The notes under the pieces are model-generated. The model saw nothing but the letters and a program-made list of their open reading frames with translations. It did no database searches and was not told the DNA's origin. Of a DNA stretch of 64,000 nucleotides, positions 4,169-54,703 are shown one piece after another. The stretch is from Hujiaoplasma nucleasis (GTDB lineage Bacteria > Bacillota_I > Bacilli_A > Izemoplasmatales > Hujiaoplasmataceae), in the NCBI RefSeq assembly GCF_013745115.1, contig NZ_CP051151.1, positions 1,426,001 to 1,490,000 of the forward strand. The letters run 5' to 3'. Position 1 is the stretch's first letter. Each line of letters begins with the position of its first letter. The position numbers were made by a program, and so were the translations under genes.

Positions 4169-4627
4169 ATGAGAGATTTTGAAAGAGAAATAGAAAAGAA
4201 GATTGAAGAAAAATTCAAAGGTAAGTTTAAGAAATATCCAGTGATGTCAGAGTGTCCAGTGTGCCAACACGATCTTGAAGTAACACATTTATCATGTTCT
4301 AATTGTCACACGGAATTGGAAGGTCGTTTTACTTTATCAAAGTTTAATTATTTAAACACTGATAAGTTATATTTCATTGAAATATTTGTTAAAAACAGAG
4401 GTAACATTAAAGCAATAGAAAAAGAAATGGGTTATTCATATCCAACCATTAAAAAAATGTTGGATGAAGTCATAGAAGAATTAGGTTATTCAGCTGATGC
4501 AAAAGAAGAAGAAGCTGAAGATGTAGATCAAACACCTAAAAAAAGTAAAATAGAAATATTAGATATGATTGATAAAGGTCAAGTATCAGTCGAAGAAGCT
4601 GCTAAATTATTAGCTAAAATTAAATAG
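4169..4627 (+). CDS. DUF2089 zinc-ribbon/HTH protein
   Basis: A 152-aa protein of the DUF2089 family. It has an N-terminal zinc ribbon with two cysteine pairs (CPVC and CSNC) and the family signature ELEGRF. A helix-turn-helix-like segment follows (NRGNIKAIEKEMGYSYPTIKKMLDEVIEELGY). The C-terminal ILDMIDKGQVSVEEAAKLL is a short helical hairpin also found in the neighbouring products. Such proteins usually sit beside YvlB/LiaG-like envelope-stress genes, and the neighbourhood fits that. It is probably a transcription regulator of this operon (inference). Confidence 0.85.
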   Translation: MRDFEREIEKKIEEKFKGKFKKYPVMSECPVCQHDLEVTHLSCSNCHTELEGRFTLSKFNYLNTDKLYFIEIFVKNRGNIKAIEKEMGYSYPTIKKMLDEVIEELGYSADAKEEEAEDVDQTPKKSKIEILDMIDKGQVSVEEAAKLLAKIK

Positions 4628-4639
4628 GAGGGGAAAATT

Positions 4640-5017
4640 ATGTCAAACCATGAATTAAAAGAAGAAAGAATGAAAATTTTAGATTTATTATCAAAGAAAA
4701 TTATTACCGCTGAAGAGGCAGAAAAATTATTGTCATCATTGTTAAGTGAACAAGAAGAACCAAAAGCTATAGAAAAAAAATCACAATTTAGAATGTTGAA
4801 AATTAAAATTGATTCAGCTGATGGCGATAATGTCAATGTTCAAATTCCGATTGAATTTGCTAAATTATTAAAAACTAAGAAGTTTATGGGCAATTATACA
4901 TCAGATTTTGATTTTGATATCGATCAACTCATTGAAATGATTCAAACAGGAGCTCATGGAGAACTTGTAAATATCAAATCTGGCGATGGTGACACTGTAA
5001 AAATCGTTGTTGAATAA
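4640..5017 (+). CDS. Small SHOCT/YvlB-N-like protein
   Basis: A 125-aa soluble protein whose N-terminus ILDLLSKKIITAEEAEKLL matches the short helical domain at the N-terminus of YvlB/DUF4097-type proteins. The rest (FRMLKIKIDSADGDNVNVQIPIEFA, ending in IKSGDGDTVKIVVE) is a short beta-rich region similar to the tail of the VanZ fusion upstream. It lies 12 bases behind the DUF2089 gene with a GGAGGGG ribosome site and is closed by a terminator. Likely part of an envelope-stress regulatory unit; no enzymatic motif is visible. Confidence 0.65.
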   Translation: MSNHELKEERMKILDLLSKKIITAEEAEKLLSSLLSEQEEPKAIEKKSQFRMLKIKIDSADGDNVNVQIPIEFAKLLKTKKFMGNYTSDFDFDIDQLIEMIQTGAHGELVNIKSGDGDTVKIVVE

Positions 5018-5023
5018 GATCTT

Positions 5024-5052
5024 AAAAACACCTTTTAGGAGGTGTTTTTTTA
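5024..5052 (+). terminator. Intrinsic terminator of the VanZ/DUF2089 operon
   Basis: Arms AAAAACACCT (5024-5033) and AGGTGTTTTT (5040-5049) with a 6-base loop, followed by T residues. Confidence 0.85.
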
Positions 5053-5078
5053 ATTGTCAGCTTTTTTTGTAGTTTTTA

Positions 5079-5087
5079 TGGTATAAT
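5079..5087 (+). promoter_or_regulatory. Extended -10 promoter for rlmD-type gene
   Basis: TGGTATAAT is a perfect extended -10; no convincing -35 at 16-18 bp. GGAAGGAGA follows at 5121-5130 as ribosome site. Confidence 0.55.
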
Positions 5088-5134
5088 ATTTATAAAGATA
5101 TTTATTTTTTTGCGTAAATTTGGAAGGAGAAAAT

Positions 5135-6493
5135 ATGTCTGAAAATCAAAATGAAAAATTCATAGTCGAGGCTATCGATTTAACCCATGATGGGTTGGCC
5201 GTTACACGTTTAGATGATGGCTACACTGTTTTTGTCGAGGATTTATTAAAGGGAGAAACAGCTGAAATCGAAATCACTCATAGACGTAAGAATTTTGGTT
5301 TTGGTCAGGTTGTCACAAGGATTAATCGAAGTCCTTATCGACAAGCACCAAAATGCAAACATTTTTATGAATGTGGTGGATGCCAATTAATGCATATGGA
5401 CTATGACGTCCAAGTTGCTTTTAAAAAATATCGAGTAGAATCAATGTTGAAAAAAATTGGCGTTGATAACATAGATGTTGATGATATGGTATCAATGGTT
5501 AATCCATATTATTATCGTAATAAGGTTGAGATTAAATTTGCTAATGGTAAAGAAGGTATAGAAGCAGGTTTTTATCAAACCAAGTCTCATGATGTGGTTG
5601 ATATAGAAGAATGTTTTATTATGCCTAAAAAATCCTTCCAATTATTAACTTTAATTAAGAATCTTTTTAATCAATACAAGATCAGTGCATTCGATGAAAA
5701 AACTAAGAATGGTTTAGTAAAATCTATTATTATTAGAGAATCTAGTAAACATAAAGAAATATTGGTTTTGATGAATTTATCAGCGTCAAAATTACCTAAT
5801 GAACGTAAATTTATTAAAAGACTTGCTGAACAACAATCAGAACTTGTTGGTGTAGGAATAATTAAAACAGATGATGATAGTGATTATCATTTAAATAAAC
5901 CTATTCGTTTAGTTTATGGTAAAAGATTTATTTATGATACGATTCTAGATGTTAAATATAGGATTGGTTTTAAATCTTTCTTCCAAGTTAACCCTTTACA
6001 AACAGAAAGATTATATTCAACAGCTATAGAAATGGCAGGATTATCTTTGAAAGATAAGGTCATCGATGCTTATTCAGGGATTGGATCCATTGCTTTAAAT
6101 ATCGCTAATAAAGTATATAAAGTATTTGGTATAGAACAATTAAGAGCTGCAGTTTATGATGCAAAAAGAAATGCCAAATTAAACAATATAAAAAATGCCT
6201 TTTTTGAAGTAGGAGATGCTGAAAAAGTAATATCAAAATGGAAAAAATATTCTTTTGACGCTATTTTCTTTGACCCACCAAGAAAAGGATGCAAAAAAGA
6301 GTTTTTAAAAACAGTTGTTGATATGAAAATTCCTAAAATTATCTATATTTCATGTAATCCAGCAACTTTAGGAAGAGATTTAGAATACTTGATTAATCAT
6401 GATTATGAAATTAAGAAAGTGGCTCCTGTTGATATGTTTCCGCAAACATCACACGTTGAGTCTATCGTATTGCTTTCATTAAAAACAGCGTAA
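5135..6493 (+). CDS. rlmD: 23S rRNA (uracil-5-)-methyltransferase, RlmD/RumA type
   Basis: A 452-aa TrmA-family RNA m5U methyltransferase. The start is the ATG at 5135 behind GGAAGGAGA; a TTG at 5120 in the same frame would place the ribosome site inside the gene. An N-terminal TRAM domain (residues ~5-65) is followed by four-iron cluster cysteines C74, C80, C83 and C160. The SAM site is DAYSGIGSIALNIA. The catalytic cysteine is C407 in YISCNPATLGRDL. The C-terminus reads THVE-like SHVESIVLLSLKTA. Its last ~45 coding bases recur in degenerate form at three places downstream, which suggests that the gene end is an integration site. RlmCD-like specificity cannot be separated from RlmD by eye. 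Confidence 0.9.
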   Translation: MSENQNEKFIVEAIDLTHDGLAVTRLDDGYTVFVEDLLKGETAEIEITHRRKNFGFGQVVTRINRSPYRQAPKCKHFYECGGCQLMHMDYDVQVAFKKYRVESMLKKIGVDNIDVDDMVSMVNPYYYRNKVEIKFANGKEGIEAGFYQTKSHDVVDIEECFIMPKKSFQLLTLIKNLFNQYKISAFDEKTKNGLVKSIIIRESSKHKEILVLMNLSASKLPNERKFIKRLAEQQSELVGVGIIKTDDDSDYHLNKPIRLVYGKRFIYDTILDVKYRIGFKSFFQVNPLQTERLYSTAIEMAGLSLKDKVIDAYSGIGSIALNIANKVYKVFGIEQLRAAVYDAKRNAKLNNIKNAFFEVGDAEKVISKWKKYSFDAIFFDPPRKGCKKEFLKTVVDMKIPKIIYISCNPATLGRDLEYLINHDYEIKKVAPVDMFPQTSHVESIVLLSLKTA

Positions 6494-6510
6494 CAAAGCC
6501 ATTTATAAAT
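6452..6510 (+). repeat. rlmD 3'-end repeat, copy A (in the live gene; putative attachment site)
   Basis: This is the end of the intact rlmD gene plus 17 bases beyond its stop. The same stretch, mostly with synonymous changes, occurs at 18776-18834 (copy C) and more weakly at 18028-18066 (B) and 21747-21806 (D). After TTATAAA copies A and C diverge completely, as expected at an insertion boundary. Confidence 0.6.
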
Positions 6511-6847
6511 ACCAATTAAAGGTGATTTTATCTATCAAAGGGTAAATATTGCCTTTTTTTTATTTTCTAGCCATTGTGGGAACATACGCATATCATTGTG
6601 GAAACATATTTTTTGTTCAAATGGACTGAAAATGATAGTCGAGGTTTGTTTGGGTAAACATATTTTAACACCTATTTTTGTTTTGATAATTTTATCAAAT
6701 CGCACTATAAAGGGCATAAGTATACTTGATGTTTACACACTCAATGATAGAGCCAATTCTGACATTTTTTAAGTATTATTTTGTGTTTCATCTCACTTTT
6801 TTATTCAACTGTAAAAAAAGCTATTCCATCATTGAGTTGATGAGATA
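6511..6847. other. Non-coding island edge with CATATTTT repeat remnants
   Basis: No credible gene. Contains two GTGGGAACATA/GTGGAAACATATTTT boxes in tandem (near 6574-6612) and GGGTAAACATATTTTA (near 6653-6668). The same short box recurs many times near 17.95, 18.55-18.76 and 21.66 kb. A weak T-rich hairpin near 6536-6560 could end rlmD transcription. The short minus-strand frame here is not supported by a ribosome site. Confidence 0.5.
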
Positions 6848-6874
6848 TGCTCTGCTATGAAAAAACAGGACACA
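6848..6874 (+). repeat. IS left terminal inverted repeat
   Basis: 27 bases starting TGCTCTGCTATG, exactly complementary to 8231-8257. Confidence 0.9.
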
Positions 6875-6929
6875 CGCCCCCCCTTTAAAGATAATGATGT
6901 ATAATATAAACAAGACAAGGAGAAAAAGA

Positions 6930-7247
6930 ATGACAAATCACTATACAACTGACTTTAAGCTTAAGATTGTTAAAATGATATTAGATGATCACATATCAAA
7001 ACATGAGTTAGAAAGACAATATAAGGTAGCCAGGAAAACTCAAAGAGACTGGGTACGTAAATATGAACAAGAGGGTATAACAGGCTTAATAAATAAAAAG
7101 AAACAAAGAGATAAAATACCAACTGATAAAACAAAAGATTCAATAGATGATTTGAAACATCAAATTTTCTTATTGAAAATTGAAATAGAACGGCTTAAAA
7201 AAGGCTATTCTAAAGAAGATGTAAAATATATAAAAAAAAACTCATAA
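6930..7247 (+). CDS. IS3-family transposase OrfA
   Basis: A 105-aa DNA-binding subunit. The ATG at 6930 follows AAGGAG; an ATG at 6894 in frame lacks a ribosome site. An N-terminal helix-turn-helix (YTTDFKLKIVKMILDD ... HELERQYKVARKTQRDWVRKYEQEG) recognises the ends, followed by a leucine-zipper-like coiled coil (LKHQIFLLKIEIERLKKG). The frame ends just after nine A residues (7232-7240), where a -1 slip would join OrfB to give the full OrfAB transposase. Confidence 0.9.
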   Translation: MTNHYTTDFKLKIVKMILDDHISKHELERQYKVARKTQRDWVRKYEQEGITGLINKKKQRDKIPTDKTKDSIDDLKHQIFLLKIEIERLKKGYSKEDVKYIKKNS

Positions 7248-8134
7248 AACAATATGAGTTTGAACTGAAAGACAAATTCAAAGCTAGGTACTATGTAAAA
7301 GACTTATGTAAGTATTTAGAAGTTCATAGATCAAGCTATTACAGGTATCTTAAGAGGAAGACCTACTTAACACATCAAGAACAAACTAAGAACCATCTGA
7401 AGATGTTAATCAAGAATTACCATGAAATGTATCCGACAAAAGGATATAGATCCATAAGAAAAGATATTAGAGATGAAACTGGTTGGGTTGTAAGTTATTA
7501 CTTAATGTATCGGTGCTTTAGAGAGATGGGTATCTCTTCTAAAGCTAGAAGGAAGGCCTTTAGAAGGCCAAAACACCAATCTGATAAGTTCCCTAATTTA
7601 GTGAATAACAATTGGTTAACATCAAGACCATTTGAGATTGTGTGTTCGGATACAACCATGTTGGTTATTAATGGGAAGAAATATGATTGGAACTATCATA
7701 TAGATGTTTTTAATAATGAAATGGTAGGGTGGAATCTAGCCAACTACAAACATGGCATGGGCGTCATGAATCATCATAATTCTTTAAAAGACTTTCTTAA
7801 GATTAAAGAAGAAAGAGGCTATGGTGATTTAAATACAATTCTTCATAGTGACCAAGGCAATATATATGCATCTAAGAAGTTTGAAAAAGCGCACAAAGAT
7901 TATCCTATTACAAGAAGCATGTCAAGGGTGGCTACACCAACTGATAATGCAGTTATAGAATCACTTAATGGCTGGATAAAGGCAGACATTAAAAAGAACT
8001 TAAAAATAGATGATTTTCAAGACCCATGGAAAGCGATTGAAATCTATGTTAATTACTTTAATAACAAAAGGCCATCATGGAAGCTAAATTATTTAAGTCC
8101 AGTAGAATATAGAATAATAAAGGGAATTAAATAA
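7232..8134 (+). CDS. IS3-family transposase OrfB (DDE integrase domain), -1 frame
   Basis: Open in the -1 frame from the A9 run; the first ATG is at 7403, but upstream codons (YEFELKDKFKARYYVKDLCKYLEVHRSSYYRYLKR) are clearly conserved IS3 OrfB sequence, so it is made by frameshifting rather than independent initiation. The rve core is complete: VCSDTTML (first D), LHSDQGNIY (second D) and the glutamate in DNAVIESLNGWIK, with the NNKRPSWKLNYLSPVEY end. No frameshift damage is seen, so the element may still move. Confidence 0.9.
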   Translation, partial: KKKLIKQYEFELKDKFKARYYVKDLCKYLEVHRSSYYRYLKRKTYLTHQEQTKNHLKMLIKNYHEMYPTKGYRSIRKDIRDETGWVVSYYLMYRCFREMGISSKARRKAFRRPKHQSDKFPNLVNNNWLTSRPFEIVCSDTTMLVINGKKYDWNYHIDVFNNEMVGWNLANYKHGMGVMNHHNSLKDFLKIKEERGYGDLNTILHSDQGNIYASKKFEKAHKDYPITRSMSRVATPTDNAVIESLNGWIKADIKKNLKIDDFQDPWKAIEIYVNYFNNKRPSWKLNYLSPVEYRIIKGIK

Positions 8135-8230
8135 ATATCAATGAGTCTATATAAAGGAAAGAAAACATTTGATATAATATATTTAAGAATAGTAATTATA
8201 TCCTCTTTTTTAAAACTTAAAGGGGGGATA

Positions 8231-8257
8231 TGTGTCCTGTTTTTTCATAGCAGAGCA
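8231..8257 (-). repeat. IS right terminal inverted repeat
   Basis: Complement of 6848-6874. The likely start codon of the downstream membrane protein (GTG at 8232) lies within it. Confidence 0.9.
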
Positions 8258-9053
8258 ATTAAAACAAGCTTTTCAAGAAAATGCAGAAAATTCATTTTCA
8301 AAAAGTAAAAATAATGCTGAAAAAATAGGTGTAATAATTGCGGTTCTAATTTTTTCTCTTTTTCTAATTTTTATCGGATCAGTACCTTTTGTAATGCTAG
8401 TTGCAAACTGGATTAAATCTGATTTTCTTACAGGATTAAGATCTTTTTTAGCTTATAGTCTATTATGGCCTATGTTTAATGCTTTCAGAAGAAGTTTGGC
8501 TTCGGAAAAAACTGTTTCTAATGAAAAACAAAGACTTACAATAATCATGTTCTTGTCAGGTGTTTATATTGGAATATTATATACTATGTTCGGATTTAAC
8601 TTTGAGCTCTTTGATGTTGCATATTTTTATTCTTCATCAAATATAACATTCTCCAACTCACTAAGCATAATTATGCCTACACTTACAGTTGTTAGCGTAA
8701 TATTAACATTTTATGCAGTGATATCTAAAATAGCACTTGAGAACGTCAAGAAAAATGATTATCCACACTGGACAATGAAATATCCTTTCATTGGAACAAT
8801 CATTGTTTTATCCACATATGGAGTCCTAATTTATTTTACAGAGCTAACATCAGAGGAGAAGCTCTTACTTGACTTAGAAAATCTAAATAGCACTATTGGA
8901 ATTTATAAAGATTTATTAGCAGCTGCATTAATACCATTGATTATAGGTGTTTTTCTGAATGTGAATTCAGAAAATAAATACAAAAGAAACGCTGGTAGTG
9001 ATAACGATCTAGAATTAAGTTCAATAAAAGAGGAGATGAGAGACGATGTATAG
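8232..9053 (+). CDS. Six-helix membrane protein of the OLD/helicase cassette, start supplied by the IS
   Basis: The frame begins at a GTG (8232) inside the IS right repeat, two bases behind AGGGGGGAT, so the first ~9 residues (MSCFFIAEQ) come from the IS. The native sequence starts near LKQAFQENAENS. Six hydrophobic helices are visible, starting near VIIAVLIFSLFLIF and ending with AALIPLIIGVFLNV, with a charged cytoplasmic-looking tail. No known family is recognised. It lies 51 bases before an OLD-family nuclease, in the same orientation, suggesting a membrane component of a defence cassette. The original N-terminus may have been lost to the insertion. Confidence 0.55.
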   Translation: MSCFFIAEQLKQAFQENAENSFSKSKNNAEKIGVIIAVLIFSLFLIFIGSVPFVMLVANWIKSDFLTGLRSFLAYSLLWPMFNAFRRSLASEKTVSNEKQRLTIIMFLSGVYIGILYTMFGFNFELFDVAYFYSSSNITFSNSLSIIMPTLTVVSVILTFYAVISKIALENVKKNDYPHWTMKYPFIGTIIVLSTYGVLIYFTELTSEEKLLLDLENLNSTIGIYKDLLAAALIPLIIGVFLNVNSENKYKRNAGSDNDLELSSIKEEMRDDV

Positions 9054-9104
9054 AGCTACTTTTCATAACCATTCAAAAAAAGAGAGTAAAAGGCAGATAC
9101 TATT

Positions 9105-10565
9105 ATGATTAAAGAAGTTATTTTTGATAATTTTAGAAATTTGTCGGGGAAGTATCAACTTGATGAGGGTATAAATGTAATAGTAGGAAAGAATAGTAGT
9201 GGAAAAACTAATTTTTTAGATGGACTTAAACTAGCGTTTTATACATTAGTTGGAGATTATTTTCCTGTATCATTAGGGGACTTTAAAGATAGTGATGATA
9301 GCCACCCAATTATTATTGATGTAGTTTTGCTTGAGGACTCTATTCCATCGTTAATAAGTATTAATTCAAAAAAAGAAAGCGAGTGGGGCTTCAAAGTTAT
9401 AGTAAAAAGAACTCAATCCGGGAGGTATTTGAAGCAGGTAAGATTGTTAAATGGCAGCACTATTGATATTGAAACAACAAGAGAAGATAAAAAATTACCA
9501 AAAATTCACAGCATTCCACTTCAAAGAATAGAAGATATATTGATTCCTGGTCTTACTTTGGGTATATCTAAGTTTATTGAATCAGATGTTCAATATAAAA
9601 ATATAATTAGAGATTCTAAAATTGATATCAAAAAACAAATTAGCAAAAAAGAAAGTGAATTTAAAAAAATGTGTTTGATGTTTAATCAAAATCTTAGTAT
9701 TGAACTTTCAGACCCTAAAATTAGTAATGAGAGATTATTTGTAGTGGATGGAGATAAAGAACATAATGCAAGAATTGGTTCGGGATATAAAAGTATAGCA
9801 AACATATTTATAAACTCAATTAATGATGACTTCAATATCATACTTATTGATGAAATTGAAAACCATTTGCATCCATCACTTATAAGATCTTTAATTAGAG
9901 AATTAAGAAAAATAGAAAACATTATGGTCATCACTACTAGTCATTCACCAGTTGTTATAAACGAGTTATTCTTGAAAGAAATTATTCATATATCCGGATT
10001 GAAACTATCTGACATTCATGATGATCAAGATGGTAATATTAAAAGAAAATTGAATAAATTTTTGCATCCAGGAAGAAATGAATTAATCTTAGCTGACAAC
10101 ATAATTCTTGTGGAAGGTTATACAGAAGAGTTGTTAATTAGGAATTACTTGGTACAAAATAACAAAAATTGGACTGTAGTAAATGTAGCTGGAGTTATGT
10201 TTGAACCATATGTGATTTTGGCAGCTTTTCTTAATAAGAATATAGTAGTCATTAGTGATAACGATTTTGCTTTATCACTAGAAAAAAAGAATTCAGACAG
10301 ATTTGTAAAACTTGAAGAATTGTGTAATAAACATAACATTAAATTACTAGAGGTTTATAATACTCTAGAATCTGATTTATATAAAAACAAGTATCTCACT
10401 AAAGAATTTGACAGTCTATTAAAAAAACATATTAATTTTCCAGATGTAAGTATAGCTAAAGAAAAAAAGAAAACTGAAATTGCAGAAATGTTAATAGAGA
10501 AAAATGTTGATTTGTCTGATTGGCATATTATAAAAGGAATTAATGATGAGTTCAAAAGTAATTAA
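9105..10565 (+). CDS. OLD-family ATP-dependent nuclease (GajA-like)
   Basis: A 486-aa protein with an N-terminal ABC-type ATPase and a C-terminal TOPRIM nuclease. Visible: Walker A GKNSSGKT at residues 28-35, a degenerate signature near ARIGSGYKSI, Walker B ILIDEIENHLHP (D249, E250), the TTSHSP switch histidine, then TOPRIM glutamate E337 (ILVEGYTEE) and the acidic pair D385/D387 (VISDNDF). This matches class 2 OLD enzymes, which pair with a UvrD-like helicase, as in Gabija (GajA). It is shorter than typical GajA. It overlaps the helicase gene by 23 bases, implying coupled translation. Confidence 0.85.
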   Translation: MIKEVIFDNFRNLSGKYQLDEGINVIVGKNSSGKTNFLDGLKLAFYTLVGDYFPVSLGDFKDSDDSHPIIIDVVLLEDSIPSLISINSKKESEWGFKVIVKRTQSGRYLKQVRLLNGSTIDIETTREDKKLPKIHSIPLQRIEDILIPGLTLGISKFIESDVQYKNIIRDSKIDIKKQISKKESEFKKMCLMFNQNLSIELSDPKISNERLFVVDGDKEHNARIGSGYKSIANIFINSINDDFNIILIDEIENHLHPSLIRSLIRELRKIENIMVITTSHSPVVINELFLKEIIHISGLKLSDIHDDQDGNIKRKLNKFLHPGRNELILADNIILVEGYTEELLIRNYLVQNNKNWTVVNVAGVMFEPYVILAAFLNKNIVVISDNDFALSLEKKNSDRFVKLEELCNKHNIKLLEVYNTLESDLYKNKYLTKEFDSLLKKHINFPDVSIAKEKKKTEIAEMLIEKNVDLSDWHIIKGINDEFKSN

Positions 10566-11574
10566 GTTTGTGGCTGGTGGCGGTAAAACAACATATTCAA
10601 AGAAACTTATGAGTAAAACAAAGAATGGATTATATCTCGCTTTTACAAATAGTGTTGTTGAAGAAATGAGTAGTAACGGATTTTTATCTAAAACTATAGA
10701 TTCCCTATTTGCTAGTTTCATTATTCCTAAGTTTGTTGATTTAATACCAATTATTAACTCCTCATCAAATATTAAATATTTTGATAAAGAAAGCCCAAAT
10801 GACATTGCAAAAGCTGCATCAAATATTTCATTTACATCAAATGGGGAAATTTATAATAAAGGCAAGAAAATATATGAAGTATCATTAAATTCTACTAATG
10901 GTGAACTTCACAAGCTAAATTATTTCAAAAACTCAAGGTCTATCAAATATATTTTTGATATAGATTCAACTAGACTAACGCACCAACAAAGAGGACAAAT
11001 ATCTGAATTTATTATTCATAATTACCCAAAAGAGTTGAGTTACATAATGTCAAAAAGATTTTCATTTATAATTTTTGATGAAGCACAAGATTTATCTGGA
11101 TATAGGGAAAAATTTTGTAGCTTACTATACTCATCGAATGTCTCATTAAGAATTTTGGGCGATGACTATCAAAACATCAACAATGGTGGTGTGTGGTTTG
11201 AAAAACTATCTCCGTCAAAAATTAATAATCTCACTTATAGATGTTCTGATGTACTTTGTGAATGGATTAGACGAGAATTAGACATTGACATTCAAGGTGT
11301 ATCTAGAGATGCTTCTGTTTCATTAATTACACTTGAAAAAGTTTTAAATTATGATGATGGGAAAAGGGTATTACTATATAAAAGTCGAATAAAAAAGTTG
11401 GCGGATACAATAGATAATTGGCATGGTAGAACCCAAACCATTCAAAGTGCAAAGGGGAATACAATTGATTCTGATATTGTGATCATAGGAGATTCGCTTA
11501 GTAAAAAAAACATGTATACAGCAATTACAAGGACAACTAAAAGTGCTTATTATACAATTAAGAGAATCAATTAA
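10543..11574 (+). CDS. Minimal UvrD-like SF1 helicase (GajB-like)
   Basis: A 343-aa superfamily 1 helicase with compact motifs: Walker A AGGGKTT (G12-T17), the FTNSVVEEM motif Ia, Walker B DEAQD at 179-183, motif III LGDDYQ, motif IV TYRCS, motif V SAKGNTID and motif VI YTAITRTTK. It is much shorter than the ~500-residue GajB usually seen, so the 1B/2B subdomains are reduced. The start overlaps the OLD gene by 23 bases with AAAGGA upstream. Together they form a Gabija-like pair that would cleave or deplete invading DNA; activity is inferred from family. Confidence 0.8.
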   Translation: MMSSKVIKFVAGGGKTTYSKKLMSKTKNGLYLAFTNSVVEEMSSNGFLSKTIDSLFASFIIPKFVDLIPIINSSSNIKYFDKESPNDIAKAASNISFTSNGEIYNKGKKIYEVSLNSTNGELHKLNYFKNSRSIKYIFDIDSTRLTHQQRGQISEFIIHNYPKELSYIMSKRFSFIIFDEAQDLSGYREKFCSLLYSSNVSLRILGDDYQNINNGGVWFEKLSPSKINNLTYRCSDVLCEWIRRELDIDIQGVSRDASVSLITLEKVLNYDDGKRVLLYKSRIKKLADTIDNWHGRTQTIQSAKGNTIDSDIVIIGDSLSKKNMYTAITRTTKSAYYTIKRIN

Positions 11575-11639
11575 TTTAACAACCATACAGAATGGAATAT
11601 ATATAGTGTATATTCAAAACGGGTTTTTATACGCAGGGG

Positions 11640-12062
11640 TTTAAATCGTCGATTTCGATATGCTTATAACGAACAGAATTTTTACTGTTTTTGTCAGCCT
11701 AACTATTCGTTCAAAAGAAAATTGAAGAATATGAACTTTTAGCATTATTTATAGTAAAGTTAGTCTAGAGGTTATCAAAAACAGTGATAAAGTCCATAAT
11801 GACAAGACATTTAAACAAAGTAGCGATTCGCTTCAAAACCTCAATTATCTATCGATTGAAAGAGGGTCTAGTATTTCAGGGGAACTATCCTTTGAACCTT
11901 ATAAAATCATGTCTTTAGCAGTATTGGTGGTCATGCACCTGCTATGTTCGCAGCTGGTCCATTCAAAAAACAGCACTTTCTAAGTCGAAAAAGGGTGCCA
12001 AAAGGTATGCCGCTTATCTCGTTTTGTGTGACTTCTTTGGTATTGAACCAGAAGAAGAATAA
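11640..12062 (+). pseudogene. Decayed coding remnant, unidentified
   Basis: No intact gene in 11575-12240, but frames with protein-like composition remain. One reads ...SDSLQNLNYLSIERG then SGELSFEPYKIM; after a frame change near 11925 the reading GHAPAMFAAGPFK appears, and a further frame gives KKGAKRYAAYLVLCDFFGIEPEEE followed by TAA at 12060. Several frameshifts are needed to join them. I do not recognise the family. It is probably the corpse of an island gene. Confidence 0.4.
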
Positions 12063-12184
12063 TTTAAGATAACTGCCTATAAGGTACTTGGATTCCCATT
12101 ATATAGAAATGCTTCCCAGATAACACTAGGTTATGGTAATATTCCGCATACAAGTACAAATAGATCCCAAGATAGATTCAATAT

Positions 12185-12219
12185 GAAATGCTCATAGCTC
12201 AAGGTTATGGGCGTTTTTC
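12185..12219 (+). terminator. Weak intrinsic terminator
   Basis: ATGCTCAT (12188-12195) pairs with ATGGGCGT (12207-12214) through two G-U pairs, followed by TTTTC. Ends the decayed region before the metal operon. Confidence 0.45.
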
Positions 12220-12438
12220 ATCCTTAAAGGTGTCTTTATTTTCAATCATAGAAAATGTTACTTAGATTAAACAATATAATTAACTCAAAACCATAATAAA
12301 AAATTCTTGTTCATCGAAATAAGTTGGGAAAAATGACTTAAAACCTGAAATGCACCTAATATTCGTTACAATCTATTTGTTTTGATGCTAAAAAAATGCA
12401 TAAAAAAACGATGAAGCAATCTAAAGAAGTTATTTTTA
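12220..12438. other. Intergenic stretch, no gene seen
   Basis: AT-rich spacer between the decayed region and the cadC promoter. No convincing frame or RNA was found. Confidence 0.4.
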
Positions 12439-12466
12439 TTGACTCCGTAGTTTATTGTGATATAAT
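12439..12466 (+). promoter_or_regulatory. cadC-cadA promoter
   Basis: TTGACT (12439-12444), 16 bp, TATAAT (12461-12466). The -10 abuts the operator that follows, so repressor binding would block initiation. Confidence 0.8.
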
Positions 12467-12468
12467 AA

Positions 12469-12496
12469 ATCTATATGAATGAACGCTCATATAGAT
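12469..12496 (+). promoter_or_regulatory. CadC/ArsR-family operator
   Basis: Perfect 10-bp inverted repeat ATCTATATGA / TCATATAGAT separated by 8 bases, centred just downstream of the -10. The TATATGA...TCATATA core is the classical type for CadC/SmtB repressors. Confidence 0.8.
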
Positions 12497-12507
12497 AGGA
12501 GATTAGT

Positions 12508-12873
12508 ATGGATCAAAAAGATATAATAGAGTTTTGTGAATGTAATGTTCTTCACCCTGAAAAAATAGAAATAGCCCATAAAAACTTACTAGATAATGAA
12601 TCTATTTCACTGCTAACTTTGTTCTTCAAAACATTTAGCGATCCCACAAGAATGAAAATCATATTGGCATTAAAAGAAACCGAGTTGTGTGTATGCGATC
12701 TGTCTGCTGTGATCAATGTCAGTCAATCCGCTGTCTCACATCAATTGAAAACCTTAAGAGAGAATCGTTTGGTTAAATACCGAAAAGAGGGGAATGTTGT
12801 TTATTACTCGCTTGACGATGACCACGTCCACGTGTTAATAACTCAAGCAATGAATCATCTAAAACATAAGTAG
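12508..12873 (+). CDS. cadC: ArsR/SmtB-family metal-responsive repressor, CadC type
   Basis: A 121-aa winged-helix repressor. Metal-site residues fit CadC: N-terminal C10 and C12 (FCECNV) plus the helix pair C61 and C63 (ELCVCDL), which in CadC together bind Cd/Pb/Zn. The recognition helix region is VINVSQSAVSHQLKTLRENRLV. A C-terminal acidic/histidine segment (DDDHVHVL...HLKHK) resembles the second, zinc-type alpha5 site. It starts 12 bases after its own operator and lies 14 bases ahead of the exporter gene. Expected to repress both genes until metal binds. Confidence 0.88.
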   Translation: MDQKDIIEFCECNVLHPEKIEIAHKNLLDNESISLLTLFFKTFSDPTRMKIILALKETELCVCDLSAVINVSQSAVSHQLKTLRENRLVKYRKEGNVVYYSLDDDHVHVLITQAMNHLKHK

Positions 12874-12887
12874 AATGGAGAAAAAAC

Positions 12888-15230
12888 ATGAAAGAGATTA
12901 AATATAGTTTATCAGAAATTAGCTGTGCGAGTTGTGCAGATAAGATTGAACAAAAGATAAAGAAGTTAAACGGAGTTGAGGAAGGTTATTTAAACTTTGT
13001 TACAAAAGAAATCAAGGTACAAGTTGCGGATTCAACTGATACTGCAAGACTATTTGACACGATTAAAAAAATTGTGAAAGATGAAGAGGGTGATGTCGAG
13101 GTATGTGAACTAACCCCAAATGTCATTTATGCAATAGATGGTTTAGACTGTGCAAATTGTGCGGCTAAGATTGAAGAAAAATTAAACAAAACCGAAGGAA
13201 TTTTAGGTGCCAACGTTGATTTTATAGCAAAAAAACTGACACTTCAATTCAAAAATTCGCTAGATCAAAAACGTATAGAAGAAAAGGTTCAAAAAATTAT
13301 TGATAAAATTGAACCAGGCGTAACGATAGCACAATCAAATGTGAAGAATGAAGATCACGTGGATGAAGAATCATCAATGACGAAAGATTTAATCATCTTC
13401 GGTATAGGTATCTTACTATTTATTGGAGCATTATTGATTGCTGAAGGAACGGTTTTTCATTATGTATTACTTATACTAAGTTATTTCATCGTCGGTGGAG
13501 AAGTTGTACTGAAGGCAGTCAATAACATATATCGAGGTAAGGTGTTCGATGAAAACTTCTTAATGACGATAGCAACTATGGGTGCATTTGCTATTGGAGA
13601 GCATCCTGAAGCAGTTGCAGTTATGATTTTTTATCAGGTCGGTGAATTTTTCCAAGACGTAGCAGTCAATCGATCCAGAAGATCCATAAAAAAATTGATG
13701 TCAATCAGACCTGATGTCGCAACGATTAAAAAAGGCAACACTTCTGTGGAAATGCGTGTTGAAGACGTTCAAACTGGAGAGATAATGATCATTAAACCAG
13801 GCGAAAGAATTCCGCTTGATGGTGAAGTGTTGTCAGGAGATTCCACAATTGACACAAAAATTCTAACAGGAGAATCTGTGCCTGTAAATGTTACAAAAGG
13901 TGAGATGGTACTCTCTGGTTGTATTAATATCAATGGTTTATTGACCGTTAAAGTTACCAAACTCGCAAGCGAATCAACTGTTTCTAAGGTACTTGAAATG
14001 GTTGAAAATGCAACCAGCAAAAAAGCACCAACCGAGAATTTTATCACTAAATTTGCACGAGTATATACTCCAATTGTCACTTCGTTGGCTGTTTTGATTG
14101 CGGTAATACCACCACTCGTTATACAAGGTGCAACTTTTGAGGAATGGATCTACAGAGCACTTATATTCTTAGTTATTTCGTGTCCATGTGCACTCGTTGT
14201 ATCGATTCCGCTTGGTTTCTTTGGTGGTATTGGAGCTGCATCAAGAAATGGTATCTTAGTTAAAGGTGGAAACTACCTAGAAGCATTAAATAACATTGAG
14301 ATTGCAGTTTTTGATAAGACTGGCACATTGACTGAGGGAACGTTTACAGTGACTGAAATCAATACAGCTAATGGTGCAACACAAGAAGAGTTGCTCGAAA
14401 AAGCAGCTTATGTGGAAAGTTTTTCTAATCATCCTATCGCTGTCTCAGTCGTCAATAAATACAATAAAGAAATAGATCAAAGTTTAATAACTGATGTTGA
14501 AGAAATATCTGGACACGGTGTAAAAGCAACTTATCAAAATGATATCATTGCAATCGGGAATGCTAGATTGATGAAAAGAGAAGGTGTTGAATTCAAGGAA
14601 TCTGTTTCGTTGGGTTCAATTATATACATCGCTATCAATGGAAAATATGTTGGAAATATTGTTGTCTCAGATCAGATAAAGAAAGACTCAAAAGCAGCTA
14701 TCAAAATGTTGAAATCATTAGGCATTAAAAAAACTGTCATGCTAACTGGTGATAAGAAATTAGTTGCTGATACAGTTGGACAAGAGTTAGATATCGATGA
14801 AATTCATAGCGAATTGTTGCCTGAAGATAAGCTCAATATTGTAGAGAAGTTATTACTCCAAAAATCGAGCAGAGGGAAGCTGTTCTTTGTAGGTGATGGT
14901 ATCAACGATACACCAGTATTAGCGAGAGCTGATATTGGAATTGCTATGGGTGGACTCGGTGCCGATGCAGCCATCGATGTAGCTGATGTCGTGATTATGA
15001 ATGATGAACCTTCTAAGATAGGTACTGCGGTCTTTGTGGCAAAGAGAACCAGAAAGATTGTTTGGCAAAATATATACTTCGCATTAGGAGTTAAATTCCT
15101 GTTTTTAGCCTTAGGAGCTATCGGAATTGCAACTATGTGGGAAGCCGTGATTGCTGATGTCGGAGTATCATTATTAGCAGTACTAAATGCAATGAGGGTA
15201 CTCAAATATAACTATAAAATAAATAATTAA
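12888..15230 (+). CDS. cadA: P1B-type heavy-metal ATPase (Cd/Zn/Pb exporter)
   Basis: A 780-aa metal-exporting ATPase with two N-terminal HMA domains (C13/C16 in SCASC, C88/C91 in DCANC). The metal-gating CPC is at 432-434, the phosphorylation site D476 in DKTGTLTEG, an HP motif (SNHPIAVS) and the GDGINDTPVLARADIGIAMG hinge. The last helices carry the P1B-2 lysine (ALGVKFLF) and aspartate (ADVGVSLLAVLNAMR), indicating divalent Zn/Cd/Pb rather than copper. It is co-transcribed with cadC. Two HMA domains are more than many CadA proteins have. Confidence 0.93.
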   Translation: MKEIKYSLSEISCASCADKIEQKIKKLNGVEEGYLNFVTKEIKVQVADSTDTARLFDTIKKIVKDEEGDVEVCELTPNVIYAIDGLDCANCAAKIEEKLNKTEGILGANVDFIAKKLTLQFKNSLDQKRIEEKVQKIIDKIEPGVTIAQSNVKNEDHVDEESSMTKDLIIFGIGILLFIGALLIAEGTVFHYVLLILSYFIVGGEVVLKAVNNIYRGKVFDENFLMTIATMGAFAIGEHPEAVAVMIFYQVGEFFQDVAVNRSRRSIKKLMSIRPDVATIKKGNTSVEMRVEDVQTGEIMIIKPGERIPLDGEVLSGDSTIDTKILTGESVPVNVTKGEMVLSGCININGLLTVKVTKLASESTVSKVLEMVENATSKKAPTENFITKFARVYTPIVTSLAVLIAVIPPLVIQGATFEEWIYRALIFLVISCPCALVVSIPLGFFGGIGAASRNGILVKGGNYLEALNNIEIAVFDKTGTLTEGTFTVTEINTANGATQEELLEKAAYVESFSNHPIAVSVVNKYNKEIDQSLITDVEEISGHGVKATYQNDIIAIGNARLMKREGVEFKESVSLGSIIYIAINGKYVGNIVVSDQIKKDSKAAIKMLKSLGIKKTVMLTGDKKLVADTVGQELDIDEIHSELLPEDKLNIVEKLLLQKSSRGKLFFVGDGINDTPVLARADIGIAMGGLGADAAIDVADVVIMNDEPSKIGTAVFVAKRTRKIVWQNIYFALGVKFLFLALGAIGIATMWEAVIADVGVSLLAVLNAMRVLKYNYKINN

Positions 15231-15326
15231 CTTAAATTATACTAACTTATTAGAGTTTATTCAATTTAAGGCTATGTTTTTTTAACAAGTCTCTAATAAA
15301 AACAGCTTCATTAAGCCATAAATTAA

Positions 15327-15399
15327 GGGTGCTAGAAAATTACATATATATGACACTAGGGTGCTAAAATTTTTACACGATTTGAAGGCTAGGGTGCTA
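15327..15399 (+). repeat. Tandem GGGTGCTA repeat (three boxes, 32-33 bp apart)
   Basis: GGGTGCTA boxes at 15327, 15359 and 15392, each followed by A/T-rich sequence; units 1 and 2 are similar over about 32 bases. A fourth box is at 17775-17782 beyond merA, also followed by similar sequence (ACCTTA-A/G-ACAGT). May be recombinase-related or remnants of a duplicated element end. Confidence 0.55.
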
Positions 15400-15508
15400 A
15401 AGTTGTATTAAACCTCAAAACCTTAGACAGTAGAGTGACGGAGGACTTAAACCCTTTTGAATACTCTTTAGGTGATGTGATAAAATGAGTGTAGTTCGTA
15501 TTGGCAAT

Positions 15509-15928
15509 TTAGCATACGATCTCATTTGGACTGACTGATATCATTTTATAGATGAATGTACTTAATATCTCTGAATCAAGTTCATCGATGACTAAATTCT
15601 TTTTACCTAAAATCTCACCTATTTTATCCATACGTTTTTTGGTATCATAATTTTTTACGTGTTCAAGTTCAAGCTTGTTAATCTCTGCTGTTAGAACTTT
15701 AAGTCGATCCGAGTATTCTCTATACTTGGCATTAAATATTGATTCTGGAATATCTGGTTTTTTTACCTTTGTATCAATTAGATTGGATAATGCTATTTCG
15801 TTTTCGTCTCTTTCTAATGTTAACTTTTCAATGATACTTTCAACATCATCAACCTTGATGGTTGATTTAATTACCCTTTGAATGGTTGTCATGATATCCA
15901 GATCTTTTAAGAAGACTTTGTATTTACG
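15509..15928 (-). pseudogene. C-terminal remnant of a large serine recombinase
   Basis: A minus-strand frame open from 15928 to a TAA at 15509; the first ATG is at 15892 but sequence upstream is in frame and truncated by a TGA at 15929. It has a long coiled coil (SIIEKLTLERDENEIALSNLI ... AEINKLELEH) followed by IDELDSEILSTFIYKMISVSP, which resembles the end of large serine recombinases (last strand and helix after the coiled coil). The catalytic and zinc domains are absent. Likely a relic of an integrase that once mobilised part of this island; the family call is by pattern only. Confidence 0.5.
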
Positions 15929-16046
15929 TCAATAAAGTGGATATAAAGAGAAAGCATCCTCGGGACATGATACAATATTATTGACAGTTAAATTAGATAT
16001 AATGTGTACACTGAATTAAACAACTAAAATAAGAAAGGTAAAACAT

Positions 16047-17687
16047 ATGAAAAAGTATGAAGCAGTTATTCAAGGTATGACATGTGATGCCTGTGAAATC
16101 CATGTAGAAAAAGCTTTAGGGTCTATAGAAGTTAAAATCATTGATGTTGATTATAAAACAGGAGTTGCTCAATTTGTCTCAACTGAAAGCATTTCTTTTA
16201 AAGATGTTGAATTGGCATTGAGTAAAACACCATATTATTTGAAATCTGTACATGAAGAGAATCATATAGCACAAGACAGCACATCCAATAAAAAAGATTT
16301 TGATTTAATTATTATTGGATCAGGCAGTGCTGCTTTTTCTGCAGCAATTAAGGCTAAAGAATATGGTAAGACGGTAGCAATTATAGAACGGGATACGATT
16401 GGAGGCACATGTGTAAACGTTGGATGTGTGCCATCAAAAACCATGATTCGTGCAGGTTATATAAATCAATTTTCAAAGAGCCACAATTTTCAAGGATTAA
16501 ATATATCATCAAACGAGGTAAATTTTGAACAACTGATTGACCAAAAGAATCATTTAGTTGACCAGTTAAGACAAAAAAAATATATAAACTTACTAGATGT
16601 TTATCAAATTGAACTTATTAAAGGACACGCAAGATTTATCAATAGTAGTCAAATTTCAGTCAATAACAACGTTTATACTGCAGATAAATACTTGATTGCG
16701 ACAGGTTCTAAGCCTGTGATTCCCAATATAAAGGGGTTAGATCAGGTTAATTATTTGACCAGTACTACATTACTAGAATTAAAAAAAACACCTAAAAGTA
16801 TTGTTATTATCGGATCTGGATATATTGCACTAGAACTCGGGCAAATGTTAAAAAATTTGGGATCAAAAGTTACTTTTTTAAGAAGAAGTCATTATTTATT
16901 AAAAGAGTATGATTCAGAAATATCGATTAAAATGGAGGAAATACTAAAGACTGATGGTATTGAATTGATCAATGATATTTCTTATGACAAAGTTGAAAAG
17001 AACCAGGATTTGATTCAGATTCATTTCACAAAAAACAACGAGAAAACATATTTAGAAAGTGAAGCACTACTCGTTGCAGCCGGACGTACTCCTAGTACAG
17101 AAGATTTGAATCTTGATTTAGCTGGAGTTAAACTTGGTGATACAAACGAGATATTAATTAACGATTTCGGTGTAACTAGCAATGAAAATATTTATGCAGC
17201 TGGTGATGTCACTGGTGGTCCTATGTTTGTATACGTTGCAGCTTATCAAGGTGGAGTAGTTATGGATAACGCATTTGGTAATGTTAAAAAGAAGATAGAT
17301 TTGAGATATGTGCCTAGTGTCATATTCACGACGCCCTCAATCGCATCTGTTGGCTACACTGAACATGAAGCAAACAGGCTAGGATACTCAACAGTTTCAC
17401 GAACAATTGATTTAGAAATGGTGCCAAGAGCACTCGTCAATCATGACACTAGGGGTCTTTTCAAAATTGTTGTTGATCAAGCAACTAACAAAATTATAGG
17501 TGTACATATTTTGGCTGAGGATGCTGGTGAGATCATTTACTCAGCCACATTGGCCATCAAATTCGGATTAACGATTCAAGATTTAAAAGATACGATGGTT
17601 CCATATCTAACCATGTCAGAAGGACTTAAGTTAGCAATCCTCTCGCTTGAAAAAGATGTTTCTCATTTATCTTGTTGTGCAGTTTAA
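16047..17687 (+). CDS. merA: Mercuric reductase with N-terminal HMA domain
   Basis: A 546-aa flavoprotein disulfide reductase that reduces Hg(II) to Hg(0) with NADPH in the cytoplasm. Features: MerP-like HMA domain with C13 and C16 (MTCDAC), FAD-binding IIGSGSAAFSAA, redox pair C122/C127 (GGTCVNVGCVPSK), NAD-site IGSGYIALELGQ, AAGDVTGGPMFVYVAA, and the C-terminal vicinal cysteines near 543-544 (LSCCAV) that hand mercury to the active site. All key cysteines are present. No merR lies beside it; the cadC repressor is 3.2 kb upstream on the other side of the recombinase relic. Confidence 0.93.
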   Translation: MKKYEAVIQGMTCDACEIHVEKALGSIEVKIIDVDYKTGVAQFVSTESISFKDVELALSKTPYYLKSVHEENHIAQDSTSNKKDFDLIIIGSGSAAFSAAIKAKEYGKTVAIIERDTIGGTCVNVGCVPSKTMIRAGYINQFSKSHNFQGLNISSNEVNFEQLIDQKNHLVDQLRQKKYINLLDVYQIELIKGHARFINSSQISVNNNVYTADKYLIATGSKPVIPNIKGLDQVNYLTSTTLLELKKTPKSIVIIGSGYIALELGQMLKNLGSKVTFLRRSHYLLKEYDSEISIKMEEILKTDGIELINDISYDKVEKNQDLIQIHFTKNNEKTYLESEALLVAAGRTPSTEDLNLDLAGVKLGDTNEILINDFGVTSNENIYAAGDVTGGPMFVYVAAYQGGVVMDNAFGNVKKKIDLRYVPSVIFTTPSIASVGYTEHEANRLGYSTVSRTIDLEMVPRALVNHDTRGLFKIVVDQATNKIIGVHILAEDAGEIIYSATLAIKFGLTIQDLKDTMVPYLTMSEGLKLAILSLEKDVSHLSCCAV

Positions 17688-34319: not shown

Positions 34320-34345
34320 ATTTAATATATGATATGGAGGTCATT

Positions 34346-35788
34346 ATGCTGATTAGTAAGTCAAATTATGTTTCATATCATCAATGCCCAAAACAATTTT
34401 ACTTAGAGAAACATAACAAGGATGTTTCTCTTTTTTCTATGTCTTTAAAAAGACGAATTAGAATGGGTAATGATGTTGGTTTATTAGCTAAATCAATGTT
34501 TTCAGGTATCAAAGAAGTTGACTATGGAGAGTCTAAAGCTATGTCTAAAAAGACAAAATCTCTCATTGATTTAAAGGTTCCCTATATTTCTGAAGCTGCT
34601 TTTTATATCAATGATTTATTTTGCGCAGTTGATATTTTACAAGTTCAAGACCAAGGTCTCATCATTTATGAAGTTAAATCATCAAGTAAGATTAAAAAGG
34701 ATTATTACAAAGATTTAGCTTTTCAAACCCATGTGATTCAAGCTGCAGGCTATAAGGTTTTAGATGCATTTGTTATCTATGTAAATAAAAATTATGTGAG
34801 AGAAGATCAGATAGATTTAAATTCATTTTTTATAATTGAATCTGTATTAGATCAACTTGATAATCATTTACTTCATGTAAAAAAAGATGTAGATAAAATG
34901 CGTGCTATGGATGAAGAACCTGAATTTAGTCCCGTAAGTCATTGTTCTAATTGTTCTTTCAATCATTATTGTTATCAAGATATGCCTAAAGATTCTATCT
35001 TTAATTTATATGGCTTTAGAGCAAGTAAAGCCTACCATGATGGCATGAGAAATTTTCAAGATTTATTAGACAATCAAGTATCCTTGACCATAAAACAAAA
35101 AAGACAAATAGATCATTTCTATTTAGATCAAGCAATGTATATAGATCATTTAAGTCTATTTGATTTTCTTAATCAAATGATTTATCCTCTATATTTCCTT
35201 GATTTTGAAACTCTAGATTTTGTGATTCCTAACTTTAAAGGCTCTAAAGTCAACCAAAGATTACCTTATCAAGCATCTATTCATTATTTGAATCAAAACC
35301 ATTCTCAATTAATACACGAGGATATATTGGTATTACCTGATCAAGACCCAAGAGAAAGAATGATTGATTTCTTAATAAAGAATCTAGGTGTTAAAGGACA
35401 TATTATGGTATACAATCAATCATTTGAAAAATCTATTATTAAAGATTTGGCAAATCAGTATCCTCAATATAAAAAAGCTTTGTTAGATATAAATCAAAGA
35501 ATCATTGATTTGTATGATGTTTTTAAAGAAGGTATGGTTTATATGAAAGAGTTTGAAGGTTCATTTTCTATTAAGTCAGTTTATCCAGCCTTATGTCAAT
35601 CTGATTCATATGAAAAACTTGACCAAGTTCATCATGGTGTTGAAGCCATGGAAGGGCTAGAAAGATTAAGTCATTTACAAGGAGAAGAACAAGGTAAACT
35701 AATCAAAGACTTAAAAGCATATTGTCGATTAGACACCTTATCGATGGTACAAATCTATGTTAAGTTATTGGAACTCATCAATGGATAA
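34346..35788 (+). CDS. DUF2779 protein with RecB/Cas4-like nuclease domain
   Basis: A 480-aa protein whose ATG (34346) follows TATGGAGG. The N-terminus YVSYHQCPKQFYLEKH, EAAFYINDLFCAVDIL, YEVKSS (the E-x-K of a PD-(D/E)XK nuclease) and the cysteine cluster CSNCSFNHYC indicate a Cas4/RecB-like iron-sulfur nuclease; the CP of CPKQ would be the first cluster cysteine. The second half (FLDFETLDFVIPNFKGSKVNQRLPYQ, MVYNQSFEKSII, CRLDTLSMVQIY) is DUF2779, an RNase H-like exonuclease fold with DFET and D acidic residues. Probably DNA processing or repair. Confidence 0.8.
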   Translation: MLISKSNYVSYHQCPKQFYLEKHNKDVSLFSMSLKRRIRMGNDVGLLAKSMFSGIKEVDYGESKAMSKKTKSLIDLKVPYISEAAFYINDLFCAVDILQVQDQGLIIYEVKSSSKIKKDYYKDLAFQTHVIQAAGYKVLDAFVIYVNKNYVREDQIDLNSFFIIESVLDQLDNHLLHVKKDVDKMRAMDEEPEFSPVSHCSNCSFNHYCYQDMPKDSIFNLYGFRASKAYHDGMRNFQDLLDNQVSLTIKQKRQIDHFYLDQAMYIDHLSLFDFLNQMIYPLYFLDFETLDFVIPNFKGSKVNQRLPYQASIHYLNQNHSQLIHEDILVLPDQDPRERMIDFLIKNLGVKGHIMVYNQSFEKSIIKDLANQYPQYKKALLDINQRIIDLYDVFKEGMVYMKEFEGSFSIKSVYPALCQSDSYEKLDQVHHGVEAMEGLERLSHLQGEEQGKLIKDLKAYCRLDTLSMVQIYVKLLELING

Positions 35789-51125: not shown

Positions 51126-52011
51126 TTTTGGTTGAATTTTTTATAAGAGGTAATCACTTGAACTTTTTTTGATAGATTACAGAAGTAGTATTTAAGTTGT
51201 CTTGTTAACACATATTGGATCTATAGACATCGCAAAAACATAAGTATCTTGATTTAATAATAGCTAAAGTAAAGCCAAACCTATATTTTATTAATCATTG
51301 TAGCAAGGAGTGTTTCTAATTGATTCAAAATCATCATAGGTATTTATTAATAAGATATTGTTATGACTTATTACAGTAATTAGTTTGATATTATAAAGAA
51401 GCATAAACAAAATTTAAACTATAGTAAACTTCTATGATATGGACTTGGAAACTTTATTGGCTTTTGAATTGTCATTAACTAATTTATCGTAATTTATGCG
51501 GAAATTTCCTCTTGCATTGTAATTATTCTATATTAATCATATAATAATTATATAACAATTTTTTTCTAAATTTTGATTTAATGATTGGAATACTTAAATA
51601 TGACTGATATTTTTCAATTACTAGCCTTTTCGGAAAAGAACAAATGTTTTTATTTATTACTGTATGATGATTTAGAAAATATATGACATATATGCCTTTG
51701 ATTATGATTTGTAATAAGGTTAAAATATGTCTAGTAGATTTGATGAAAAGATAATGAATAATAAGAAGAGAAAAATATAGTTGTCTTTTATTGGATAATT
51801 ATAAGTTTTTTTCTATAGTTATATTTGATTTCAACAAATTGAAGAATTAAATGAGTAGAAAGATTAGAAGAATGGAGTAATAATTAAACATCTTTAGCGA
51901 TGATTTAATTAAACGTATTATCATGTGTTTTTTTAAAGTAAAAGTTGAGAAAATTTATTAATTTTACAACTTATTTAACTTGGCAGTTAAAATAGAGTAT
52001 TGGAGGCAATT
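51126..52011. other. Gene-poor spacer, ~885 bp
   Basis: Very AT-rich; no credible frame with a ribosome site on either strand, no tRNA-like structure, and stops in all frames. It separates the core region from the type I restriction island. May hold decayed DNA or an integration boundary; no repeat pair was found. Confidence 0.5.
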
Positions 52012-54676: not shown

Positions 54677-54703
54677 GTTACATATTTTTAAGGAGTTGAT
54701 TCT

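Follow-up and report, generated by a model that had tools for sequence, protein, structure and literature searches.

Among described defence systems, the one that most resembles the locus analysed here is Gabija, in which an ATPase-Toprim nuclease of the OLD type, GajA, is encoded beside an SF1 UvrD-like protein, GajB. The N-terminal half of GajB spans 222 residues (subdomains 1A and 1B) and its C-terminal half 272, with an accessory subdomain at residues 314-416 (PMC10681800), and it is through the N-terminal half that GajB touches GajA (PMC10781630). In vitro the Bacillus cereus protein acts as an ATPase but not as a helicase (PMC10568477, PMC10681800); its substrates on DNA are (d)ATP/(d)GTP, and the DNA is not unwound (PMC10568477). 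For a Pseudomonas Gabija system, DNA ends free of RecBCD have been indicated as the trigger (PMC12407980). The active site of the related Class 2 OLD nucleases has been described in a Burkholderia enzyme and consists of E400, E404, D455, D457, T506, E508 and K562 (PMC6755086). In a literature search that took in few subscription papers, we found no report of a Gabija system that is linked to a membrane protein or that lacks the helicase subdomain 2B.

Here we describe a locus from the 1.81-Mb, single-contig genome of Hujiaoplasma nucleasis. It lies in a 64-kb stretch with a G+C content of about 30%, which we refer to as the window, and consists of genes for a compact OLD nuclease and a compact UvrD-type helicase (HEL) that follow an ORF for a membrane protein. 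The original prediction read these as a three-gene cassette and proposed a divergent Gabija subtype with a membrane-located sensor or effector. Our analysis makes it highly probable that the nuclease and helicase genes (9105-11574) make up a compact, apparently intact Gabija-type defence module, next to which lies an unrelated membrane-protein gene decapitated by an insertion sequence (IS).

Results

Layout and setting of the locus

The three ORFs are present as predicted (Table 1), all on the forward strand and with a 23-nt overlap between the nuclease and helicase genes; counted from the second ATG of HEL, the start to which its orthologues align, the overlap is 20 nt. The membrane-protein ORF ends 51 bp before the OLD gene on the same strand, a gap that would still allow the two to be co-transcribed in the host strain. 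Pfam models bear out the identification of the nuclease as an OLD protein (AAA_21/AAA_15 and OLD-like_TOPRIM, above cut-off) and that of the helicase as an SF1 enzyme (a UvrD/Viral_helicase1-type match). Six helices had been ascribed to the membrane protein; a hydropathy scan gives five clear ones and perhaps a sixth, and the first full-length relatives that were found have about seven. Its Pfam candidates, Claudin_2 and TauE, fall below cut-off and were dismissed as composition effects.

Table 1. Features of the OLD/helicase pair, the insertion sequence and the disrupted membrane-protein gene, in window positions
Feature	Position	Strand	Basis or remark
Probable 5' stub of membrane-protein gene	6720..6847	+	open frame 6720-6845, ends ...MIEPILTFFKYYFVFHLTFLFNCKKSYSIIELMR / ...FFKYYFVFHLTFLFNCKKSYSIIELMR
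IS3-like IS element of 1410 bp with TG...CA ends	6848..8257	+	inverted repeats, HTH OrfA, rve-type OrfB
Left terminal inverted repeat of IS, 41 nt	6848..6888	+	
OrfA of IS, HTH	6894-7247		
OrfB of IS, integrase core (rve-type)	7403-8134		
Right terminal inverted repeat of IS, 41 nt	8217..8257	+	
Truncated membrane-protein ORF, 273 aa, GTG start	8232..9053	+	3' part of disrupted gene
Compact Class 2 OLD nuclease (GajA-like), 486 aa	9105..10565	+	ORF, Pfam, PADLOC, fold, residues
Compact SF1 UvrD-type helicase (GajB-like, HEL), 343 aa	10543..11574	+	ORF, Pfam, PADLOC, fold

The pair comes after the IS, on the 3' side of rlmD. The block 5' of the pair is conserved in same-genus genomes and the genes that come after rlmD differ in each of them, so the site is a variable one. 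Several other features of the window are recorded here as observations in their own right. A non-coding stretch 3' of the helicase gene (11900-12060) resembles decayed transposase sequence when read by eye, and a metal-resistance cluster adjoining the pair (12508-17687) contains, by sequence, an ArsR-like regulator and a heavy-metal P-type ATPase as well as a mercuric-reductase-like flavoprotein with an HMA domain (16047-17687). Farther along are a DUF2779 protein with a Cas4-like PD-(D/E)XK nuclease part (34334-35788) and a type I restriction operon at 52000-57847 (HsdM 52000-53493, HsdS 53483-54676, HsdR 54704-57847). After HsdR come an AAA ATPase (57901-59451), matched best in PADLOC by NsnB at 4.6e-49 and also by PDC-M55A, and an overlapping 372-aa ORF without a PADLOC match (59445-60563), and these two are a possible further defence pair.

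The nuclease

Pfam domains and an end-to-end alignment with GajA give the window protein the OLD architecture, an ABC-ATPase fused to a Toprim domain, and the Class 2 residues (E, E, DxD, TxE and a lysine) are all present. Across the 13 OLD proteins of the compact clade described below, E337, E341, D385, D387, T420 and E422 are invariant; K452 and K456 each occur in 12 of the 13, and either may be the equivalent of K562. Together these residues are predicted to form a two-metal site. The ATPase motifs are kept in every member except that of locus L037 (Saccharibacteria), whose N-terminus is frameshifted. The OLD gene of this locus (about 4400-6017) appears to change frame near Walker A, its N-terminal part lying in another frame, which would reflect either a sequencing error or decay.

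The PADLOC model for GajA matches the window OLD at 2.5e-29, and the GajA and GajB models match all 13 members of the clade. When an OLD profile (alignment A3) was compared with the PDB, GajA came first (1.3e-13), above AriA and PtuA. The structural model of OLD (mean pLDDT 79) aligns with GajA (8sm3) at Z 19.3 and rmsd 4.4 over 406 residues, with positions 1-485 lying on 2-575; the top fold match is a Class 1 OLD from Thermus scotoductus (6p74; Z 21.2, rmsd 5.9, 403 residues). Two low-confidence stretches of the model, 139-160 and 201-225, correspond to the would-be dimerisation region. The catalytic residues, the PADLOC matches to GajA and GajB and an OLD fold that runs along the whole of GajA uphold the view that the OLD/UvrD pair is Gabija-like.

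The helicase

The SF1 motifs are kept in all 13 helicases. PADLOC's GajB model matches the window HEL at 1.6e-10, the match being local only, and a Foldseek search with the HEL model (mean pLDDT 92) ranked a GajB chain first. In VIA-align the best matches were UvrD/PcrA (Z up to 23.7, rmsd 3.8, 307 residues) and GajB chains were absent among the best 50; because Foldseek places GajB first, we do not regard this absence as evidence against a relation.

HEL keeps the 1A, 1B and 2A cores and leaves no room for 2B. Just 71 residues separate R233 of motif IV from K304 of motif V, from which it follows that HEL has no 2B domain, and the accessory (2B-like) insertion of about 100 residues is absent from the HEL model and from all 13 members. 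The N- and C-terminal halves of HEL comprise about 212 and 131 residues, respectively. Set against the 222 and 272 residues of GajB, these lengths show that HEL retains the half that contacts GajA and has lost the 2B-like accessory subdomain.

The compact pair at other loci

Twelve other loci (L020, L021, L022 and L031-L039) contain strong relatives of HEL, a recurrence of the pair well beyond chance. At each of the 12 an OLD gene lies directly 5' of the helicase gene, usually with a 20-nt overlap, so that in the window and at these loci alike OLD has a UvrD/PcrA/Rep-like gene immediately 3' of it. Intact OLDs of this group have 480-490 aa and the helicases 340-352 aa, and the compact OLDs group as one clade with 100/100 support in a tree to which four longer OLDs of other loci were added; the compactness remarked on in the original prediction is a conserved property of this clade over the 13 loci. 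Carriers include metagenome-assembled genomes (MAGs) assigned to Bacilli, Clostridia, Acholeplasmatales, Bacteroidota and Saccharibacteria, assignments that may be wrong for single contigs, and strong matches occur in just 4 of 296 genomes of the host's class. Over these 13 loci the distances of OLD track those of HEL (r = 0.87, a value reached in none of 10,000 permutations), so the two genes have been inherited together, and at the level of sequence the pair is a conserved, overlapping and co-diverging unit. Its neighbours elsewhere include type I restriction subunits, a DUF3644/restriction-endonuclease protein, a D12 DNA methylase and AbiEii, and such neighbours, like the variable site, fit a mobile defence module.

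A single-sequence scan of genome contigs returned no HEL relatives, nor did HEL searches of phages and plasmids or a viral scan with the HEL alignment A1; viral scans with alignments A3 and A4 returned distant relatives only. On one viral contig (L109, 3043-5681) lie overlapping genes for an OLD of 536 aa and a helicase of 395 aa; this pair, intermediate in size, possibly bridges compact and canonical Gabija.

An insertion sequence has cut the membrane-protein gene

The IS3-like element is single-copy in the host genome, where a second copy was sought to fix the ends of the element and none was found; its inverted repeats are 93% complementary over 41 nt. The right repeat carries both the GTG start (8232) of the membrane ORF and a ribosome-binding-like sequence, AGGGGGG. 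Residues 1-9 of the protein (MSCFFIAEQ) are IS sequence, with the ninth codon spanning the junction. Since the start lies inside the IS repeat, the ORF is a fusion of IS and gene.

Relatives of the membrane protein at three loci (L023, L024 and L025; found in a small search with E values of about 1e-8 to 3e-11) carry about 35 additional N-terminal residues, including one more hydrophobic helix, and their alignment to the window protein begins only at about residue 18-33. Relatives found later have the same build. The segment just left of the IS is probably the 5' stub of the gene, and the 3' part resumes to the right of the IS with LKQAFQENAENSF from 8259. The distance between the two frames is 1413 bp, the 1410 bp of the IS plus 3 bp, and the parts are in phase once the IS and a 3-bp target duplication are discounted; the putative copies of this duplication, ata and att, differ in one base. 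We call the stub only probable because its match to the N-termini of the relatives is weak (a search limited to the stub stretch gave a best E of 0.035). As read from the DNA, the membrane-protein gene has plainly been cut by the IS at its start: a same-strand ORF does precede the pair as predicted, but it is not an intact gene.

Ahead of the membrane ORF, the right IS end takes part in a terminator-like hairpin of 14 pairs (8197-8232), and transcription from inside the IS may halt there. Promoter-like sites in this region were no commoner than in shuffles, and we therefore do not claim transcription driven by the IS.

The membrane-protein family and its neighbours

The membrane protein adjoins the compact OLD-helicase pair at 0 of the 12 other loci, 11 of which have upstream sequence (L031 starts just 203 bp before OLD); calculated from these 11, the 95% upper limit on linkage between membrane protein and pair is about 24%. 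No OLD/HEL genes were found near the loci of the membrane-protein relatives. One genome, G072, has both families on a single contig, at 69 kb and 497 kb, about 427 kb apart. Co-occurrence of this kind was the check proposed with the original prediction, and both of the findings named beforehand as telling against it, homologous pairs without the membrane protein and a disrupted membrane gene, have now been made. The proposal of a membrane-located sensor or effector is accordingly not supported, and from these sequence comparisons we judge the ORF to lie outside the defence system as an unrelated bystander. The apparent three-gene cassette is an artefact of IS insertion beside the pair.

Relatives of the membrane protein adjoin type I restriction genes at L023 and L024, and Pycsar cyclase and PycTM genes at L085, in the host genome itself, and at the similar-looking L087; others sit elsewhere. 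At L085 (5153-8611; about 968-972 kb of G000:C1) a PycC cyclase and a PycTM effector, probably a Pycsar system, border a membrane-protein paralogue that is full-length. This neighbourhood, like the comparable layout at L087, also has an SprT-like small protein. A weakly SprT-like family of about 155 aa joins the membrane family at L025 (8230-8691), L085 (8144-8611) and L087 (8499-8993), its three members being 37-50% identical, and a search of 6301-13000 in the window for a remnant of such a partner found nothing convincing. A single-sequence scan of viral contigs, a search of plasmids and a viral scan with the membrane-protein alignment A5 returned no relatives of the membrane protein.

Discussion

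Three other readings of the locus have to be weighed against a two-gene defence module. A three-component system, with the membrane protein as sensor or effector of the pair, would suit the 51-bp, same-strand spacing to OLD, the tendency of the membrane family to lie near defence genes, and the ribosome-binding-like sequence of the IS-derived start, from which the ORF may be translated. Yet the gene is truncated by the IS, none of the 12 other pairs adjoins such a protein, OLD/HEL genes were not found at the loci of its relatives, and where both families share a contig (G072) they lie about 427 kb apart; we regard a three-component system as exceedingly improbable. It is also very unlikely that the pair is a housekeeping DNA-repair module with no part in defence. 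Its sporadic distribution (strong matches in 4 of the class's 296 genomes), its scatter over distant phyla, its variable position after rlmD and its restriction and abortive-infection neighbours all speak against such a role, even though a RecF/SMC-like ATPase and a UvrD-like helicase would be apt parts for repair and Class 2 OLDs were once given proposed repair roles (PMC6755086).

The least credible reading of all is that the nuclease is a Class 1 OLD, or a relative of PARIS (AriA/AriB) or of the Septu/retron protein PtuA, that merely adjoins a helicase. The AriA and PtuA models do match the ATPase half and the top fold match is to the T. scotoductus Class 1 enzyme, but GajA ranks above AriA and PtuA in the profile search and a Toprim domain with Class 2 residues is present. 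Moreover, the helicase gene is linked and overlapping at 13 of 13 loci, so that the constant partner is a helicase and not an HNH or AriB-type gene.

For the two-gene Gabija-type module we infer an anti-phage function by analogy. To judge from GajA/GajB, the compact OLD would form a multimer whose nuclease activity is regulated by ATP, and HEL, as a helicase-like ATPase, would dock on it through the retained 1A/1B half. Foreign DNA would switch the complex on, the cue during infection probably being DNA ends or a change in nucleotide state, and the active OLD-HEL complex would then nick and cut DNA. Since it lacks the 2B subdomain, HEL more probably regulates the nuclease as a DNA-stimulated ATPase, in analogy to B. 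cereus GajB, than unwinds DNA processively. A bolder and rather doubtful possibility is that the compact clade forms a Gabija subtype with a mechanism of its own, spread across phyla including Saccharibacteria, in which a 2B-less HEL is unable to unwind DNA and serves the minimal OLD purely as a DNA-stimulated ATPase switch.

A membrane component of Gabija is thus removed as a false lead. The other part of the original proposal, a divergent Gabija subtype, is reasonable in light of the 13 compact loci. The clade, with its 2B-less helicase-like subunit, represents a natural minimal Gabija, and the compact pair lets the parts of GajA and GajB that are needed for defence be probed directly.

Comparison with known systems

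With the Gabija system of B. cereus VD045 (GajA/GajB) the pair shares its gene order and tight overlap, an ATPase-Toprim nuclease with an E/E/DxD/TxE site, an SF1 UvrD-like partner, and defence genes as neighbours. The compact OLD has 486 aa and GajA 578, a difference of about 90; the two are about 20% identical in structural alignment, and the spacing of the Toprim and helical regions is shorter in the compact protein. HEL has 343 aa compared with 494 in GajB, a shortfall that by length corresponds to the missing accessory subdomain (GajB 314-416) and shortened loops of the C-terminal core. The B. cereus OLD-helicase complex is a 4:4 assembly, and the co-divergence seen here (r = 0.87) is consistent with a complex.

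The Class 2 OLDs of Burkholderia pseudomallei and Xanthomonas campestris are about 110 residues longer than the compact OLD. Their E400, E404, D455 and D457 correspond to E337, E341, D385 and D387 here, and their T506, E508 and K562 to T420, E422 and either K452 or K456. The spacing from D457 to T506 is 49 residues in these enzymes and 33 in the compact OLD, and that from E508 to K562 is 54 as against 30-34. Helicases of the UvrD/PcrA/Rep type share with HEL the 1A and 2A RecA cores and all motifs, but their aligned chains have 622-658 aa, compared with the 343 aa of HEL, which is without 2B. The Class 1 OLD of T. scotoductus, finally, shares the overall ATPase-Toprim fold with the compact OLD; Class 1 OLDs are standalone proteins without a helicase gene, whereas the compact OLD is helicase-linked.
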